A program made the position numbers and the translations under genes. From Candidatus Xiphinematobacter sp. Idaho Grape (GTDB lineage Bacteria; Verrucomicrobiota; Verrucomicrobiia; Chthoniobacterales; Xiphinematobacteraceae), in the NCBI RefSeq assembly GCF_001318295.1, contig NZ_CP012665.1, forward strand, positions 558,001 to 622,000: DNA of 64,000 nt, given 5' to 3'. Positions 51,834 through 58,961 of this stretch are shown here, one piece after another (positions within the stretch are counted from its first letter, which is position 1; each line of letters opens with the position of its first letter). The notes below the pieces were generated by a model, which was given only the letters and a program-made list of their open reading frames with translations, ran no database searches and was not told where the DNA came from.

Positions 51834-52826
51834 ATGCTTTTAGGGTTTATCAAACTTTACTCACGCTCCGCGTTGTTTGTAGCCATTGGTGTTGGTGGAG
51901 TGTTGTCCTACTTCTCTGAACAATTGCTTGATCCTTATCACGTTCAGGTACTTACACTTGCCGCTGTTTATGCCACATTGGCTGTTAGCCTCAATCTAGT
52001 GATGGGGGAAACAGGTCAGTTCTCTCTGTGCCATGCGGCTTTTATGGCAGTCGGTGCCTACACTTCAGCTTACATTACCTCTTATGGTCTCCCGTCCTGG
52101 TTTCCTGGCGTGAAATTCACAGGAACCTCTTTCTGGTCACAAGTGACGTTTTTCCCAGTATTAGTTTCGAGTGGATTAACTGCTGGTCTAGCAGGATGGA
52201 TTGTTGGAGTCCCTTCTCTACGCTTACGTGGAGATTACTTGGCCCTGGTAACACTCGGATTTGGGGAAATCATTCGGGTGGTGCTACAGAATACAGAAGC
52301 AGTTGGGGGGGCGCGTGGAATGGAGGCAGTTGTCCCAGCAACTAATCTCTTCTGGAGTATTGGTACGGCAGCAACCGTCATTTACTTTTCCTTCTCTCTG
52401 GTTCGTTCTACCTATGGGAAAGGTTTCCACGCCGTACGGGATGATGAACTTGCGGCAGAGAGCATGGGTGTGAATACCACAGCCTATAAAGTTACAGCGT
52501 TCGTGTGGGGAGCTTTTTTTGCCGGGATAGCTGGAGCGCTCTACGCACACAGCGTCGAATTTATCAGTCCAGATGGTTTTACGTACCTAAAATCAATCGA
52601 AATTCTGGTCATGGTCGTACTAGGGGGAATGGGTCAGATAGGTGGTGTTACCCTTGCAGCAATCTTTCTTACTTTGCTTAATGAATGGCTACGCCAACTG
52701 GGAAGTTATCGAATGGTAGCCTATTCTCTCATGATTATTCTTCTCATGATTTTGCGTCCCCAGGGTTTGCTGGGAGGAGTAGGAAAATGCTTTGAGCAAT
52801 GGGCCTTTCACAGGAAAAGAATGTGA
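51834..52826 (+). CDS. livM: Branched-chain amino acid ABC transporter permease LivM
   Basis: 330-residue membrane permease of the hydrophobic amino acid uptake family. LivM hallmarks are the NLVMGETGQFSLCHAAFMAVGAY segment near 62-84, the LRLRGDYLALVTLGFGEI core near 130-147, and VLGGMGQIGG near 263-272. About nine or ten membrane helices. The start at 51834 is the first ATG of the frame. livG begins inside its 3' end (28-bp overlap). The upstream 215 bp hold no livH or livK. Substrate may be amino acids or urea, as the families overlap. Confidence 0.9.
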   Translation: MLLGFIKLYSRSALFVAIGVGGVLSYFSEQLLDPYHVQVLTLAAVYATLAVSLNLVMGETGQFSLCHAAFMAVGAYTSAYITSYGLPSWFPGVKFTGTSFWSQVTFFPVLVSSGLTAGLAGWIVGVPSLRLRGDYLALVTLGFGEIIRVVLQNTEAVGGARGMEAVVPATNLFWSIGTAATVIYFSFSLVRSTYGKGFHAVRDDELAAESMGVNTTAYKVTAFVWGAFFAGIAGALYAHSVEFISPDGFTYLKSIEILVMVVLGGMGQIGGVTLAAIFLTLLNEWLRQLGSYRMVAYSLMIILLMILRPQGLLGGVGKCFEQWAFHRKRM

Positions 52827-53599
52827 ATGGGAACCATCTTCTAGAAGTTCGGAACTGTGCACTTCGTTTCGGAGGTTTACATGCCGTGGCGGGTGTGTCT
52901 TTTCAGGTAAAAAAAGGTGAACTCTTAGGATTGATTGGCCCTAACGGCGCAGGGAAAAGCAGCGTATTTAATCTAGTGACTGGTATTTATTCTCCTACTT
53001 CAGGGGAGATTCTTTTTGAGGGGAAGGTATGCTCTGGATTACGCGCTAGTAAAGTAACTGCGATGGGATTGGCGCGCACTTTCCAAAATGTACGTCTATT
53101 CCACTCTCTCTCAGTGCTTGAGAATGTAGTGGTGGCGTTTAACCTGCACTTAAGTCATAGTTGGCTGCACGCAATTACCCGTGGGGCTAAATTCCTGCAG
53201 GAAGAGGCCAATGTGCGACAGCAAGCCCTAGAATTACTGAAAATTTTTGGACTGGACCAAGCGGGTGGACGCCTTGCCACTGCGCTGTCTTATGGGTCAC
53301 AGAGGAGATTAGAAATCGTACGTGCCATGGCTACACAACCAAAGCTCCTTTTATTGGACGAACCTGCTGCTGGGATGAATACGGTTGAAAAGGAAGAGCT
53401 TATGCAGCTTATCCGTTTCGTTCAGGAGCGTTTTGGAATTACCGTTCTTTTGGTTGAACATGACATGCCTCTTGTCATGGGGATTTGCCGGAGAATCGTG
53501 GTAATGGAACAAGGTAAATTACTCGCTGAAGGTACTCCTGAAGAAATTCAATCTAATCCCACAGTAATCGAGGCATATCTCGGGCGCCCCCTCCCCTAG
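52799..53599 (+). CDS. livG: Branched-chain amino acid ABC transporter ATPase LivG
   Basis: 266-residue ATPase. Walker A is GPNGAGKSS near 43-51; a LivG-typical GLARTFQNVRLF segment lies near 97-108. The signature region reads LSYGSQRRLEIVRA, the usual LivG variant of LSGGQ. Walker B is LLLDEPAAGMN, followed by the VEHDM switch. The N-terminal dozen residues overlap livM. With livF and livM it forms a livM-livG-livF operon. Confidence 0.93.
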   Translation: MGLSQEKNVNGNHLLEVRNCALRFGGLHAVAGVSFQVKKGELLGLIGPNGAGKSSVFNLVTGIYSPTSGEILFEGKVCSGLRASKVTAMGLARTFQNVRLFHSLSVLENVVVAFNLHLSHSWLHAITRGAKFLQEEANVRQQALELLKIFGLDQAGGRLATALSYGSQRRLEIVRAMATQPKLLLLDEPAAGMNTVEKEELMQLIRFVQERFGITVLLVEHDMPLVMGICRRIVVMEQGKLLAEGTPEEIQSNPTVIEAYLGRPLP

Positions 53600-53622
53600 C
53601 GAATAGAGAAGAGTGACACTGC

Positions 53623-54330
53623 ATGCTTAAAGTGAAAAGTCTCAACGTGTTTTACGGTTCAGTACAGGCTCTACACGGAGTCTCTTTTGAGGTCCCAGTC
53701 GGAAAAATTGTTACTTTGATTGGCGCAAACGGTGCTGGAAAGTCTACTGTACTGCGTACCGTATCTGGTCTAAACCGCCCGACAGCCGGTAGTGTGCAAT
53801 TTAATGGGGAGGACATTTCTAGCCTACCTCCTTACTTGATAGTAGACAAGGGGCTAGCCCACGTGCCAGAGGGTAGGATGATATTTTCAAATCTCTCTGT
53901 CCGTGAAAATTTAAAAGTGGGATCCTACCGAAGAAAAAATCACCGTGCATTGCCTGCAGATCAAGATTATGTCTTTTCAATCTTCCCCCACATCGCAGAG
54001 CGCCTCAACCAACAGGCGGGAACCCTCTCCGGTGGGGAACAGCAGATGCTGGCCATTGGCAGAGCAATTATGAGTGGAGCAAGAATGTTAATGCTTGACG
54101 AGCCTTCATTAGGAATTGCTCCGATCCTTGTGGAAACCATTTTTCAACGACTAATTGAACTTAATGAACGCCGTGGCATGACAATTCTTCTTGTAGAACA
54201 GAATGCGAACCTTGCACTACAAGTCAGCCATCTTGCTTGCGTACTGGAGTCTGGAAAATTGGCCCTCAGTGGAAGGAGTAGGGAACTGCGCGAGAATGCT
54301 CAGGTCCGAAAAGCCTATCTTGGACATTAA
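53623..54330 (+). CDS. livF: Branched-chain amino acid ABC transporter ATPase LivF
   Basis: 235 residues, the usual LivF length. Walker A is GANGAGKST near 37-45; the LivF hallmark HVPEGRMIFSNLSV (about 84-97) precedes signature LSGGEQQMLAIGRA and Walker B LMLDEPSLGIAP, with a VEQNAN switch region. It follows livG by 23 bp. Its stop overlaps the stop of the convergent NRPS-like gene by 4 bp. Confidence 0.94.
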   Translation: MLKVKSLNVFYGSVQALHGVSFEVPVGKIVTLIGANGAGKSTVLRTVSGLNRPTAGSVQFNGEDISSLPPYLIVDKGLAHVPEGRMIFSNLSVRENLKVGSYRRKNHRALPADQDYVFSIFPHIAERLNQQAGTLSGGEQQMLAIGRAIMSGARMLMLDEPSLGIAPILVETIFQRLIELNERRGMTILLVEQNANLALQVSHLACVLESGKLALSGRSRELRENAQVRKAYLGH

Positions 54331-57300
54331 GGATTAGTTTGAGACGAAGGGAGAACCTCTGTAAGAAGTTTAGCTACCTCAGCTGGCTGATCTAAGGGAG
54401 ATCCTCCTTCCAAATGGAGCTGGTTCCATATTCCCATAGGAGCACGTTGACACCACTTCGGATCAGGTTTTCCACTAACGAAAAAATGGGGTTCTCTCTG
54501 AAGTACTGGGGCTCGATATTCGGCAATTATTTCCACCAGATCCTTAGGATCTGCCTTATCCTCCTTAATGAAGAACGCCCTTCTTAGGACTTGTAACCAC
54601 TTTGCAGGTTTTTGATTGCAAGGTGGGATGTCAAAAAGGACGAGAGACAAGCTTTTTTTGTTCTTCTGATCTAATTGATGAGCTAACTCCCAAGCAAATA
54701 TTGCCCCCACGCCAATACCGATGAGAGCAAATTCACCTGAGAGATATTCCTGAAGAACGAGTGCTAAACTGCAGGTAATTTTTTCTACAGTAGCTGAAGG
54801 AGCTAGTGCCCTCCTAGGAACCACGAGACAATGTACAGCATACTTACTGGATAAAGACTGTGCTATGGGGAAATAATCCTCGGCAAGGCCTCGGCCGGCA
54901 TGAATAAAATAGAGCGCGATGCTACCATCAATCCCTGTTTGCAGCGTCGTTATAACGGGTAGCCGTCGTAAGGGTTCGACGCCAGAGTTTAGGTGGTGGC
55001 AGCTACCTGCCTCCGCCTGGGGAGTGGTAGTTGGCACAAGTATAGGTATAATAGGTTGCGGCTTTGGAGTGGCTAGAGACAGTGGATCTATCTGATCAAA
55101 AGGATCTAAATGAAACCGGGTGACAAGTGCAAAATGTGCGGGTACCAACTGTCTTGGAAGGTGTTCCCTTAAATGCTGATCCAACGTGGTTGGCAATGAC
55201 GCCACGTGGCTGTCGCGTGGCACAATCCATGCACCCAAGCAGGACGATTGCTCCCCAAGCGGAGTAAAGCTACGAACTATGCCGTCAATAATATCTGGAT
55301 GAGAAGCAAGTGCATCTTCTATCCGATGCAGGGTCGTCCAATCCAAACTATCTGGGAGTTGGCCGTAAGGTTGACTAATCAGTACAAGCTGTCCTTTTTG
55401 GTTCCATCGTGCCCATTCATCTGTCACAGAAATTTGCCAGGAACGGCCACCTATAGTGGCAGTTACGGTCTTCTTGTTTTCACACATCCCATTCTGAATG
55501 TTTTCGTGCAAACAATATGCAAGAATTCCAGGAGAGTAAGAGGGGAGTAGTTGGTACCGGCTGTCTACAAGAAACACTGCAACACTGGGCTGTGGACGGC
55601 CACAGACCAGTCCCATCTCACAAAACTCCGGTGCATCATCAAGGCTTTCCGTTACAATGCCACTCCCCAAGAACTCTGAAGGGCTATAAAATACAACGCA
55701 ATCAGCTTTTCCTCTGTTCTGTTCCTTCCACTTGGAAATGATCGAACGCGAGATATGACCCGCCTCAATTACTATCCGATGCAAAGTACGAGGTGTAGGA
55801 TGGTGTAATTCGGCAAGATAGTGTAGCCATTGACTCCAGAAAGCAGCCGTGAGGCGTAGATGTGTGATCTTTGCAGACTCAAGAGTTTCCTGAAAGGCAG
55901 TCCGTGTGCTTTTAATGCTTTTCTCTGGAAAAATCAATGTGGCTCCAGTAAGGAGAGCAACAAAGCACTCTTCTACTGCCGCTGCACTACCCTGGAGGTG
56001 GTGGCAGAGAATCCGGTCATTGGGCTGCGTATTATAGGTACAAATGGCATTTGTTACGACAGTTTGTAGCTCTGCATAAGAGATTACTCTTCGATCTCCG
56101 TTGGACTGCAGGACAGAAACCACAGGGCTAGTAGGAGCGAGAGAAGCAATGGGTAATACCTGCCTTGGAAGAGAGAGGATTCTCTCCCATAGAGGCTCTT
56201 CCAACACAAGTAAAGTGTGTTGGATTTTTCCAGGAATAGCCTCCTCGTTCCTGTCTGTTATCACAGTAGACACCTGATATCTGGAAAGGTACTCCCCGAG
56301 TTCGGCAGGTAATGCTTCTGGATCTAGCGGCAAGCAGGTACAGCCAACTCTTAGTGCTCCAAGTAAGACAACCAACGTCCATGGGGAAAGGGGCATTATC
56401 AGTGCAAGGACTGTTCCAGCACCTATAGAACGGTTTTTTAAAAATGTGGAAAATTGACTGGAATAGGTTTCCATCAGAGAAAAACTTAAAGAATCACTTC
56501 CCTTTTCTACAAATGTGCGGGAGCCATGCAGTTGAACAATCCTTTTTAGAGCTGTGAATGGATCGAGGAAAGTTGGTTGCACTAAAGGGGATACCACCCC
56601 CAAACAGACTGCTTCCTCCTCTTCACTGGGAAGGCCTAACTCGATCGTAGAAACCAGTGTATTTGGCTCTGCAAAGTAGTGTAGCGCCTTAAGAAGACGT
56701 TCAAGTAACTGGCGTACAATCCGCGGAGAAATCCAGCTAGGGTGGTATTCGATAGCGATAGAAAGGCGTTCCCTTCCACAAGCCAGAACCTGCATGGGAA
56801 ACCGAGAGTTCTGGTGTATGTGAGCGTCGAAACGCATCCACTGAGGTAAGCAAGTATGAATGCGGTTATTAAGACTTTCCGGTAAGTAATGCAGGGTGCT
56901 GCTAAGTTGAGGGCAGGGATCAGAATGACCAACGTGGTTCCATACTTCTTGGATATTGGTTATAAGGAAGGGTTCAGTACTAAGTTCTGTCTCCTGCAGA
57001 GAGCGCAACCATGCTTCACAGGTTAAGTCCTCTGGAACCTGAATAGGAAAGGGCAAGCAGCTTTCAAAGAGACCTACTGATTCCTCAGCCTGGGAACCCG
57101 CAAGACGACGGCAGGAGCGATAGATACCAAATATTGCCTCTCCGTCCACGTTAACCCGTCCAAGGACCAAACCCCAGGCTGCCGCAAGAAGAATAGGTAA
57201 GGAGGCGTCTGCTAGACTAGCTGACTGAATAAGCTGCATAGTAGTTTCTTTCTCCAAGAGAAAAGCCTCACATTTTAACGGAGAGTCCTCAGGGGTGCCG

Positions 57301-57950
57301 CTAGATGCTTGAGAATGGGAAGGAGCTACAAATGGTAGAGGATTGATTCGTTGCAAGAGATGTTTCCAGTGCTGGCAGGAGGCTGCAGGGTCTGCACTTT
57401 CGATGGCACCAATAGCGGCTGCATAAGAAGGAGATTCTTGCAAAGAAGGTTGACATCCATAAGAAAGCTCCTCATAGAAAATCAGCCAATCACGCAACAC
57501 CAAAAAGATAGATTCCCTGTCTAATAGGATTGGGTGACAAGTCCAAAGAAAGTGGTGCATTTCTCTAGGCAGTTTGATGATGTGAAAATGGAAGAGGGGC
57601 GGATGAGTTAAATCAATGGATTCTGCTGCATCTTTAGACCGCAGGCGATTCCATTGGACACTTATTTCCTCGCTGGAGAAGTTACACCAATTGAGAGGAT
57701 GCCAGACAGTTTCGCAATCCTTATACTCACGGAAAGAGAGTACATCGCCTGCTTTCTTGCTGAAACCAGAGCGGAGCAAACCATGCCGGCGTATTACCCA
57801 TTGCCAAGACTTTTGGAGCAGTCTGATATCCACGGGTTCTCCAAAATTGAAAGAAATCTGTATATTGTCAGCTATGGTTGTCCCATGGAGGATATCTGTG
57901 GACACAGCATAAATAGCTTCTTGCATGGGAGAGGCTGGGAATTCGCGCAT
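54327..57950 (-). CDS. NRPS-like protein (condensation-adenylation-thioesterase) with degenerate active sites
   Basis: An unbroken 1207-residue protein with the domain order of a nonribosomal peptide synthetase module. The condensation-like domain spans about 1-430, but the HHxxxDG motif reads HPILLDR at 139-145, so the second His is Pro140 and the final Gly is Arg145. The adenylation-like domain spans about 460-960: the A3 loop near 609-622 has lost the SGTTG.PKG pattern, A5 is YSPSE at 755-759, A7 is TDEWARW at 843-849, and the A10 lysine is Gln953. No carrier domain with its GxxS serine fits in the 40 or so residues before the thioesterase-like domain (about 1005-1200), where GxSxG reads GIGVG at 1078-1082. 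It looks like a pseudoenzyme. Motif alignments are by eye. No partner NRPS genes are nearby. Confidence 0.8.
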   Translation of the reverse strand: MREFPASPMQEAIYAVSTDILHGTTIADNIQISFNFGEPVDIRLLQKSWQWVIRRHGLLRSGFSKKAGDVLSFREYKDCETVWHPLNWCNFSSEEISVQWNRLRSKDAAESIDLTHPPLFHFHIIKLPREMHHFLWTCHPILLDRESIFLVLRDWLIFYEELSYGCQPSLQESPSYAAAIGAIESADPAASCQHWKHLLQRINPLPFVAPSHSQASSGTPEDSPLKCEAFLLEKETTMQLIQSASLADASLPILLAAAWGLVLGRVNVDGEAIFGIYRSCRRLAGSQAEESVGLFESCLPFPIQVPEDLTCEAWLRSLQETELSTEPFLITNIQEVWNHVGHSDPCPQLSSTLHYLPESLNNRIHTCLPQWMRFDAHIHQNSRFPMQVLACGRERLSIAIEYHPSWISPRIVRQLLERLLKALHYFAEPNTLVSTIELGLPSEEEEAVCLGVVSPLVQPTFLDPFTALKRIVQLHGSRTFVEKGSDSLSFSLMETYSSQFSTFLKNRSIGAGTVLALIMPLSPWTLVVLLGALRVGCTCLPLDPEALPAELGEYLSRYQVSTVITDRNEEAIPGKIQHTLLVLEEPLWERILSLPRQVLPIASLAPTSPVVSVLQSNGDRRVISYAELQTVVTNAICTYNTQPNDRILCHHLQGSAAAVEECFVALLTGATLIFPEKSIKSTRTAFQETLESAKITHLRLTAAFWSQWLHYLAELHHPTPRTLHRIVIEAGHISRSIISKWKEQNRGKADCVVFYSPSEFLGSGIVTESLDDAPEFCEMGLVCGRPQPSVAVFLVDSRYQLLPSYSPGILAYCLHENIQNGMCENKKTVTATIGGRSWQISVTDEWARWNQKGQLVLISQPYGQLPDSLDWTTLHRIEDALASHPDIIDGIVRSFTPLGEQSSCLGAWIVPRDSHVASLPTTLDQHLREHLPRQLVPAHFALVTRFHLDPFDQIDPLSLATPKPQPIIPILVPTTTPQAEAGSCHHLNSGVEPLRRLPVITTLQTGIDGSIALYFIHAGRGLAEDYFPIAQSLSSKYAVHCLVVPRRALAPSATVEKITCSLALVLQEYLSGEFALIGIGVGAIFAWELAHQLDQKNKKSLSLVLFDIPPCNQKPAKWLQVLRRAFFIKEDKADPKDLVEIIAEYRAPVLQREPHFFVSGKPDPKWCQRAPMGIWNQLHLEGGSPLDQPAEVAKLLTEVLPSSQTNP

Positions 57951-58301
57951 AGAAGAGTGGATAAGATGGAAGAGTGCCCGAACCGGGTTGAGAATGGTGG
58001 AGTGGTGATTGCTATTCTCAGAGACGGAGTTTTCTGTCTTCTAAAGGGGGGGGGGAGAATTTTCTAGTCTTCCATGGAATGGTAATATATCGTCCGTGGT
58101 GTGTTGTCGTCGGTCAGATGAAATGGCACTGCCTTGCTCCGCATGCTTAACGAGCGACCAAAAGCAGTAGAGCCGGAGGTAGTTCTGGCAGCAATGCGCG
58201 TGGCCTCTATGGGGAAATCACTTAAAGTCTTACAGAAACTCTCTTCTGTGCAAAAGGCATGTATAAATCAAGGCACTATTGAAGATTTAGTTCTCTCTAG
58301 C

Positions 58302-58961
58302 ATGAGTGGGATGGGTGTCCGTATTTTCTTGGGTATCCTCGGCATCTTCTTGCTCCTGTCGCTCCTGTTTTCTACAGTAAAGTCGTTTCCACTCACCGGC
58401 AGCGTTTTTTCTTCGGCAATTACGGCCATCGATCAAGATGGGAACCAGATGGCTTTTGCTGAGGTCTACCCAAGAGAACCTACGCTCGTGTACTCCTCTA
58501 CCCAGCAGCAGACACTCCTAGCCGTACAGCACAGGCCTGTTGCCTTAAGGGATGCATTTGAAGCCCTCAAGGCACAGAAACCCCACACCACTGCGGCAAG
58601 CCGAGGCTCCAGGATCGCACAAAAAACATTTCATAGTAAATACAATATTCCCCCTCCATTAATTGCAAACACCAACGGAGCTGTTGCTAGGATATTCGGA
58701 GTGCCGCTTCTAATGGAGATTTATTCTTCCCGGCGGACCCTTTTTACTAACAAGAACGGAGAAGTAGTTTGGAAGTCGGCTCAAGGCTGCGGCACGCAGT
58801 GGTACGATAGAAGTGCAGACAGCGTTGGATTTTTTAGCAAAAAAGGCCTTGACGCGGGGGAAAATTCCAGACCCCCAAAAGATTGGGTTGATAGCTCAAC
58901 GGTAGAGCAGCGCCCTTTTAAGGCGTTGGTTCTGGGTTCGAATCCCAGTCAACCCATGTAA
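58302..58961 (+). pseudogene. Decayed thiol peroxidase (Bcp/AhpC-TSA type) with compensating frameshifts
   Basis: The frame from an ATG at 58302 (open from 58134) codes a membrane-anchor-like stretch followed by a recognisable peroxiredoxin: SAITAIDQDGNQMAFAEVYP, then, after a garbled part, LRDAFEALKAQ, QKTFHSKYNIP and GAVARIFGVPLL. Between about 58489 and 58553 the peroxiredoxin reads in the +2 frame instead: YPAADTP then SRTAQACC. This fits a 2-base insertion (probably GT duplicated near 58487-58491) and a 1-base insertion near 58550 that together restore the frame. The peroxidatic Cys position (DTPGCT) is an Arg codon CGT at 58523-58525. The natural stop is gone and the frame runs through tRNA-Lys to 58961. 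Probably non-functional. Confidence 0.7.
58885..58956 (+). tRNA. tRNA-Lys (UUU)
   Basis: Complete 72-nt cloverleaf: acceptor GGGTTGA pairs with TCAACCC, the D arm is AGCTCAACGGTAGAGC, the anticodon loop CTTTTAA gives TTT (Lys), the T arm is CTGGGTTCGAATCCCAG, and the discriminator is A at 58956. CCA is not encoded. It lies inside the 3' end of the run-on frame of the peroxiredoxin remnant and 44 bp before treZ. Confidence 0.95.

Follow-up and report, generated by a model that had tools for sequence, protein, structure and literature searches.

What does a long NRPS (nonribosomal peptide synthetase)-like gene do if its catalytic centers have been replaced? The question is raised by a locus of Candidatus Xiphinematobacter sp. 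Idaho Grape, an endosymbiont of plant-parasitic nematodes with a published genome (CP012665; PMC4607532) of 915,884 bp in a single contig. The window, i.e. the whole stretch of DNA analyzed here, covers 64,000 nucleotides of this genome (NZ_CP012665.1, positions 558,001 to 622,000), and the gene, designated pseudo-NRPS, lies at 54327..57950 on the minus strand. Our results indicated that its product is very probably a pseudoenzyme maintained by selection. We favored, with confidence about evenly balanced against doubt, the explanation that this NRPS-derived pseudoenzyme is kept as a binding platform, most likely for the synthesis of branched-chain amino acids (BCAA).

The open reading frame started with ATG and continued unbroken for 1207 codons, as the original prediction from the window had described. 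A Pfam search detected the three NRPS segments that had been predicted by eye, in the order condensation (C), adenylation (A) and thioesterase (TE), and all three matches exceeded their Pfam cut-offs. The C-like domain (residues 3-444; 56619..57944, minus strand like the gene and all its parts) matched PF00668 (2.5e-37). The A-like domain (residues 472-963; 55062..56537) matched AMP-binding (1.1e-25), and a match to AMP-binding_C was under the cut-off. The TE-like domain (residues 1011-1207; 54330..54920) matched PF00975 in residues 1013-1111 (6e-8), and it also gave profile matches to solved NRPS thioesterases. The linker preceding it varied freely.

The absence of a carrier domain was also borne out, as Pfam gave no PP-binding match in the 1207-aa protein, and thus no hidden carrier there. 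The genome contained a single PP-binding match, outside pseudo-NRPS, which is presumably the fatty-acid AcpP. The C domain of pseudo-NRPS was the only one in the genome.

An alignment placed the protein and 26 orthologues (27 members) next to three real NRPSs as controls, all with intact motifs. Compared with these controls, the window protein lacked the second His of the C motif, A3, the A4 Asp, A5, A8, the A10 Lys and the Ser of the peptidyl carrier protein (PCP). The HHxxxDG position read HPILLDR (residues 139-145; 57516..57536), with the catalytic second His and the Gly replaced. This His was present in only one member (G004, which retains HHxxxD), and Arg occupied its place only in G014 (HRNILDR). 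The structural Asp of the motif was kept in 24 of the 27 members, and the Gly was changed to Glu in 21.

In the A-like domain, the phosphate-binding loop of A3 was lost (residues 610-621; 56088..56123). Ala656 (55983..55985) replaced the Asp that anchors the substrate in motif A4, and Gln953 (55092..55094) replaced the catalytic Lys of A10. Neither the Asp nor the Lys occurred in any member (0/27 for each).

In the TE-like domain, GxSxG was replaced by GIGVG (residues 1078-1082; 54705..54719), with Gly1080 aligned to the nucleophile Ser of solved TEs. No member had the Ser, and all 27 had Gly. This Gly was invariant while the C and A sites drifted, hinting that the turn at the elbow still matters. 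The elbow read GxGxG in 25 of the 27 members, a pattern that resembles a Rossmann-type nucleotide-binding turn.

The motif readings on which the original prediction was based (HPILLDR, Gln953, GIGVG and no A3 loop) were therefore all correct, and the same active-site columns were replaced in the orthologues. Since the catalytic features that define functional NRPSs were looked for and found missing, the protein is, as judged from its sequence, outside that family.

On the other hand, the predicted fold was retained. An AlphaFold model covering the first 1200 residues (pLDDT 80) displayed an NRPS fold from end to end. Its best fold match in PDB was SrfA-C (2vsq; E 3e-65), and it matched tyrocidine synthetase with a TM of 0.78 by target and McyB C1A1 with a TM of 0.82. 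The match to the condensation domain of SrfA-C alone gave a TM of 0.87, and that to the adenylation domain of GrsA 0.86, both by target. Pseudo-NRPS thus resembled NRPS termination modules (C-A-PCP-TE, as in SrfA-C and EntF) in domain order, overall fold and Pfam matches. It differed from them in lacking the carrier, in its replaced catalytic residues, in having no biosynthetic cluster and in following ilvD in relatives.

Loss of the known motifs would still be compatible with an enzyme whose catalytic residues have migrated, or with new chemistry, such as turnover of a ligand in the C tunnel or at a converted TE elbow. Certain positions were invariant in all 27 members: S33, G37, W49, L59, W83, W88, W100, L127, P128, H133, L135, P369, W371, D375, D566, W705, W741, G762, G784, G853 and G1080. 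In favor of this reading, the newly conserved residues were densest in the N-lobe of the C domain and in the TE domain, and G004 retains HHxxxD. However, none of the newly conserved S33, G37, W49, W83, W88, P369, W371, D375, W705 and W741 corresponds to a catalytic position of NRPSs. The protein also lacks a nucleophile at the TE elbow, the A4 Asp, the A10 Lys and a PCP, and the only carrier protein of the genome is the putative AcpP elsewhere. We therefore considered continued catalysis quite unlikely.

Is the gene simply a long pseudogene in slow decay, free of selection? The ratio of nonsynonymous to synonymous substitution rates (dN/dS, by NG86) between the two reduced symbionts was 0.176 for pseudo-NRPS (C 0.19, A 0.16, TE 0.15; dS 0.83). 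The value for ilvD was 0.073. That of pseudo-NRPS was about two to three times those of seven neighboring genes in the same pair (0.057-0.104), and this elevation and the freely varying linker before TE are what slow decay would predict. Nevertheless, the ratio was far below 1, both in the symbionts and in eight free-living pairs (0.062-0.134). A neutral simulation gave an expectation of about 33 stops on each branch after divergence from the sister symbiont, and none of 300 runs was free of stops. The observed number was zero, and neither the sister symbiont nor the free-living relatives had a broken frame. The expectation that an unselected pseudogene of this length would carry stops was thus put into numbers.

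In the same lineages, an adjacent gene had visibly decayed. The divergent neighbor, an AhpC/TSA (BCP-type) peroxiredoxin gene (58293..58784, plus strand), which served as a synteny anchor and a decay control by comparison with relatives, was intact in the larger-genome relatives G001 and G002. In the window the region of its active-site Cys was scrambled, and the fragment remaining in the sister symbiont carried a stop. Pseudo-NRPS was spared, although the peroxiredoxin was broken in both. Together with conservation of the gene over four families (below), the stop count, dN/dS and the decay of the peroxiredoxin refuted slow decay, which we regard as very improbable. Pseudo-NRPS is under purifying selection. 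The proposal of a pseudoenzyme kept for a non-catalytic role was thus supported by the lost motifs, the predicted fold, the dN/dS below 1 and the intact frames.

Every one of the 17 genomes sampled from four Chthoniobacterales families had an orthologue, of about 1,100-1,285 aa, and none was found in 40 genomes from other families of the order (57 relatives in total). The carrier families, as delimited by GTDB, were labeled f1 (which holds Xiphinematobacter), f2, f7 and f9. Across 213 genomes of the order, members scored about 600 bits or more (a few, split over contigs or matches, were scored in pieces), compared with 341 bits or less for real NRPSs, most of which had much longer frames. A sample of 388 genomes of the phylum gave no further member outside the order. 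A search of contigs with an f7 alignment gave 22 named loci. Named carriers included Spartobacteria LR76, AMD-G4, Terrimicrobiaceae M30B24 and metagenome-assembled genomes from Lac Pavin.

In a tree of IlvD, the four carrier families formed one clade (support 0.89) apart from the non-carriers; the G047 entry of this tree was taken in the wrong frame and should be disregarded. The tree of pseudo-NRPS followed the families, with f9 nearest to real NRPSs (support 0.77). These phylogenies suggested that the family likely had a single origin, with the placement of f9 not firm. Pseudo-NRPS was also retained in G001 and G002, at 52% and 48% identity, respectively. These two belong to the Xiphinematobacter genus of GTDB and, with genomes of about 2.5 and 1.9 Mb, are useful as relatives from before the reduction.

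Four f9 members, at L026 (7046-10702), L027, L028 and L033, contained an insert of about 80 residues between the A and TE domains. It looked PCP-like by eye, without Ser at the expected place. It gave no Pfam match. Its comparison by profile with real PCPs also fell short of significance (E 0.12, probability 0.5%), and it is at most a candidate relic of the carrier domain.

The original prediction placed the gene alone, with no biosynthetic cluster. This held for the window, but in relatives the gene belongs to an ilvD operon. Each of the 26 loci tested outside f1 (in f2, f7 and f9) had ilvD immediately upstream on the same strand. In 25 of these loci the two genes were separated by -26 to 78 bp, with a median of 14 bp, and in the remaining one (L064) hit coordinates put the distance at about 1.3 kb. 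Since ilvD precedes pseudo-NRPS on the same strand with tight gaps, we inferred that the two are co-transcribed.

Such a tight operon in f2, f7 and f9 might mean that pseudo-NRPS is a hitchhiker, its reading frame or mRNA mattering for the expression of ilvD and its protein not at all. In f1, however, the gene is retained with its amino acids under purifying selection and ilvD elsewhere. This persistence without the link indicated that the protein itself, rather than the expression of ilvD, is under selection. Hitchhiking was thereby refuted for f1, and we give it almost no credence as a general explanation.

In several of the non-f1 loci the divergent peroxiredoxin gene was found beyond ilvD, and in f1 it directly adjoined pseudo-NRPS. 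Most simply, the f1 locus would be this same locus from which ilvD has been lifted out. In the genome of the window, ilvD is at 879501-881180.

On the other side of pseudo-NRPS, livM-, livG- and livF-like genes of a BCAA ABC transporter are convergent with it (51834..54330, plus strand; compared with the loci of relatives). This adjacency was found only in the two reduced genomes, and livMGF was therefore ruled out as the ancestral partner.

Given these results, we propose the following course of events. An NRPS termination module (C-A-TE) would have lost its chemistry in the common ancestor of the four families, and purifying selection would have preserved it since then for a task other than catalysis. 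Most likely, its folded C, A and TE bodies provide a platform for binding a protein or a ligand, like a dead X-domain. The task would most likely lie in BCAA synthesis, because the gene is next in the ilvD operon of the free-living relatives; possible targets are IlvD or another step of the pathway, which pseudo-NRPS may bind, protect or tune. IlvD carries an Fe-S cluster that is sensitive to oxygen. The synthesis of valine, leucine and isoleucine is kept under raised constraint in Xiphinematobacter (PMC7857533). The position behind ilvD and this raised constraint together pointed to BCAA metabolism, and most simply to IlvD. The symbiont retains this pathway for its host.

Several points weigh against this proposal. 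Partnership in an operon does not prove partnership in function. In all four f1 genomes ilvD was located elsewhere, which indicated that in this family the gene can do without a shared operon with ilvD. The livMGF neighbors were absent beside the gene in G001 and G002. The small subunit of acetolactate synthase, the usual BCAA sensor, was present in nearly all carriers (and in most non-carriers); this also ruled out pseudo-NRPS as a replacement of the BCAA feedback sensor. We hold the link to BCAA tentatively, at slightly less than even confidence.

The retained pseudoenzyme may instead have a role unrelated to BCAA, for example in the envelope or in stress, with the ilvD operon supplying only a promoter. 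Retention of the gene in f1 without the ilvD link would be expected in that case, and the other syntenic neighbor, in f1 and several other genomes, is the peroxiredoxin. The tight spot behind ilvD, on the other hand, has lasted across three families while most other neighbors changed. We consider an unrelated role a serious contender that is nonetheless somewhat improbable.

The nearest precedent for the proposed binding platform is the X-domain of glycopeptide synthetases, in which HHxxxDG is changed to HRxxxDE and which is inactive and recruits P450s (PMC6565677). As in the X-domains of teicoplanin and kistamicin synthesis, pseudo-NRPS has a C-domain fold with a dead motif, which ends in DE in most members. 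The X-domain, however, forms a single part of an active NRPS that works with Oxy P450s, whereas pseudo-NRPS is a whole, stand-alone dead module in a genome with no other C domain and no remaining NRPS. By analogy, it may work like an X-domain.

A second comparison is offered by the prozyme of S-adenosylmethionine decarboxylase, a pseudoenzyme that regulates its partner enzyme (PMC5201418). In both cases the catalytic residues are lost, the fold is kept and the gene is retained. The prozyme, however, pairs with its own active paralogue, while pseudo-NRPS has no active paralogue in the genome, and its candidate partner, IlvD, is unrelated.

Searches of open-licence full texts turned up nothing on this protein, on ilvD-linked NRPS-like genes in Verrucomicrobia or on a whole dead NRPS module conserved in several families, an absence that is not proof of novelty. 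In the two Xiphinematobacter genome papers, NRPS was unmentioned in the main text. Pseudoenzymes and single dead NRPS domains such as the X-domain were already known; the new element would be a whole module, ancestrally dead and conserved in several families.

Taken at its most specific, our proposal is that a whole NRPS module was converted a single time, in the ancestry of several Chthoniobacterales families, into a dedicated non-catalytic partner of BCAA synthesis that binds IlvD or a ligand of the pathway, and that the obligate symbiont keeps it since the supply of essential amino acids to the nematode host depends on it. In this full form we consider it possible, with somewhat more doubt than belief. 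Automated annotation likely labels the gene an NRPS, which would give misleading estimates of the products of the symbiont. Among genes with no assigned role, pseudo-NRPS is one that this nutritional symbiont has kept in its 0.92-Mb genome. In soil and freshwater bacteria, it would add to the vicinity of BCAA synthesis a new component that is open to testing.

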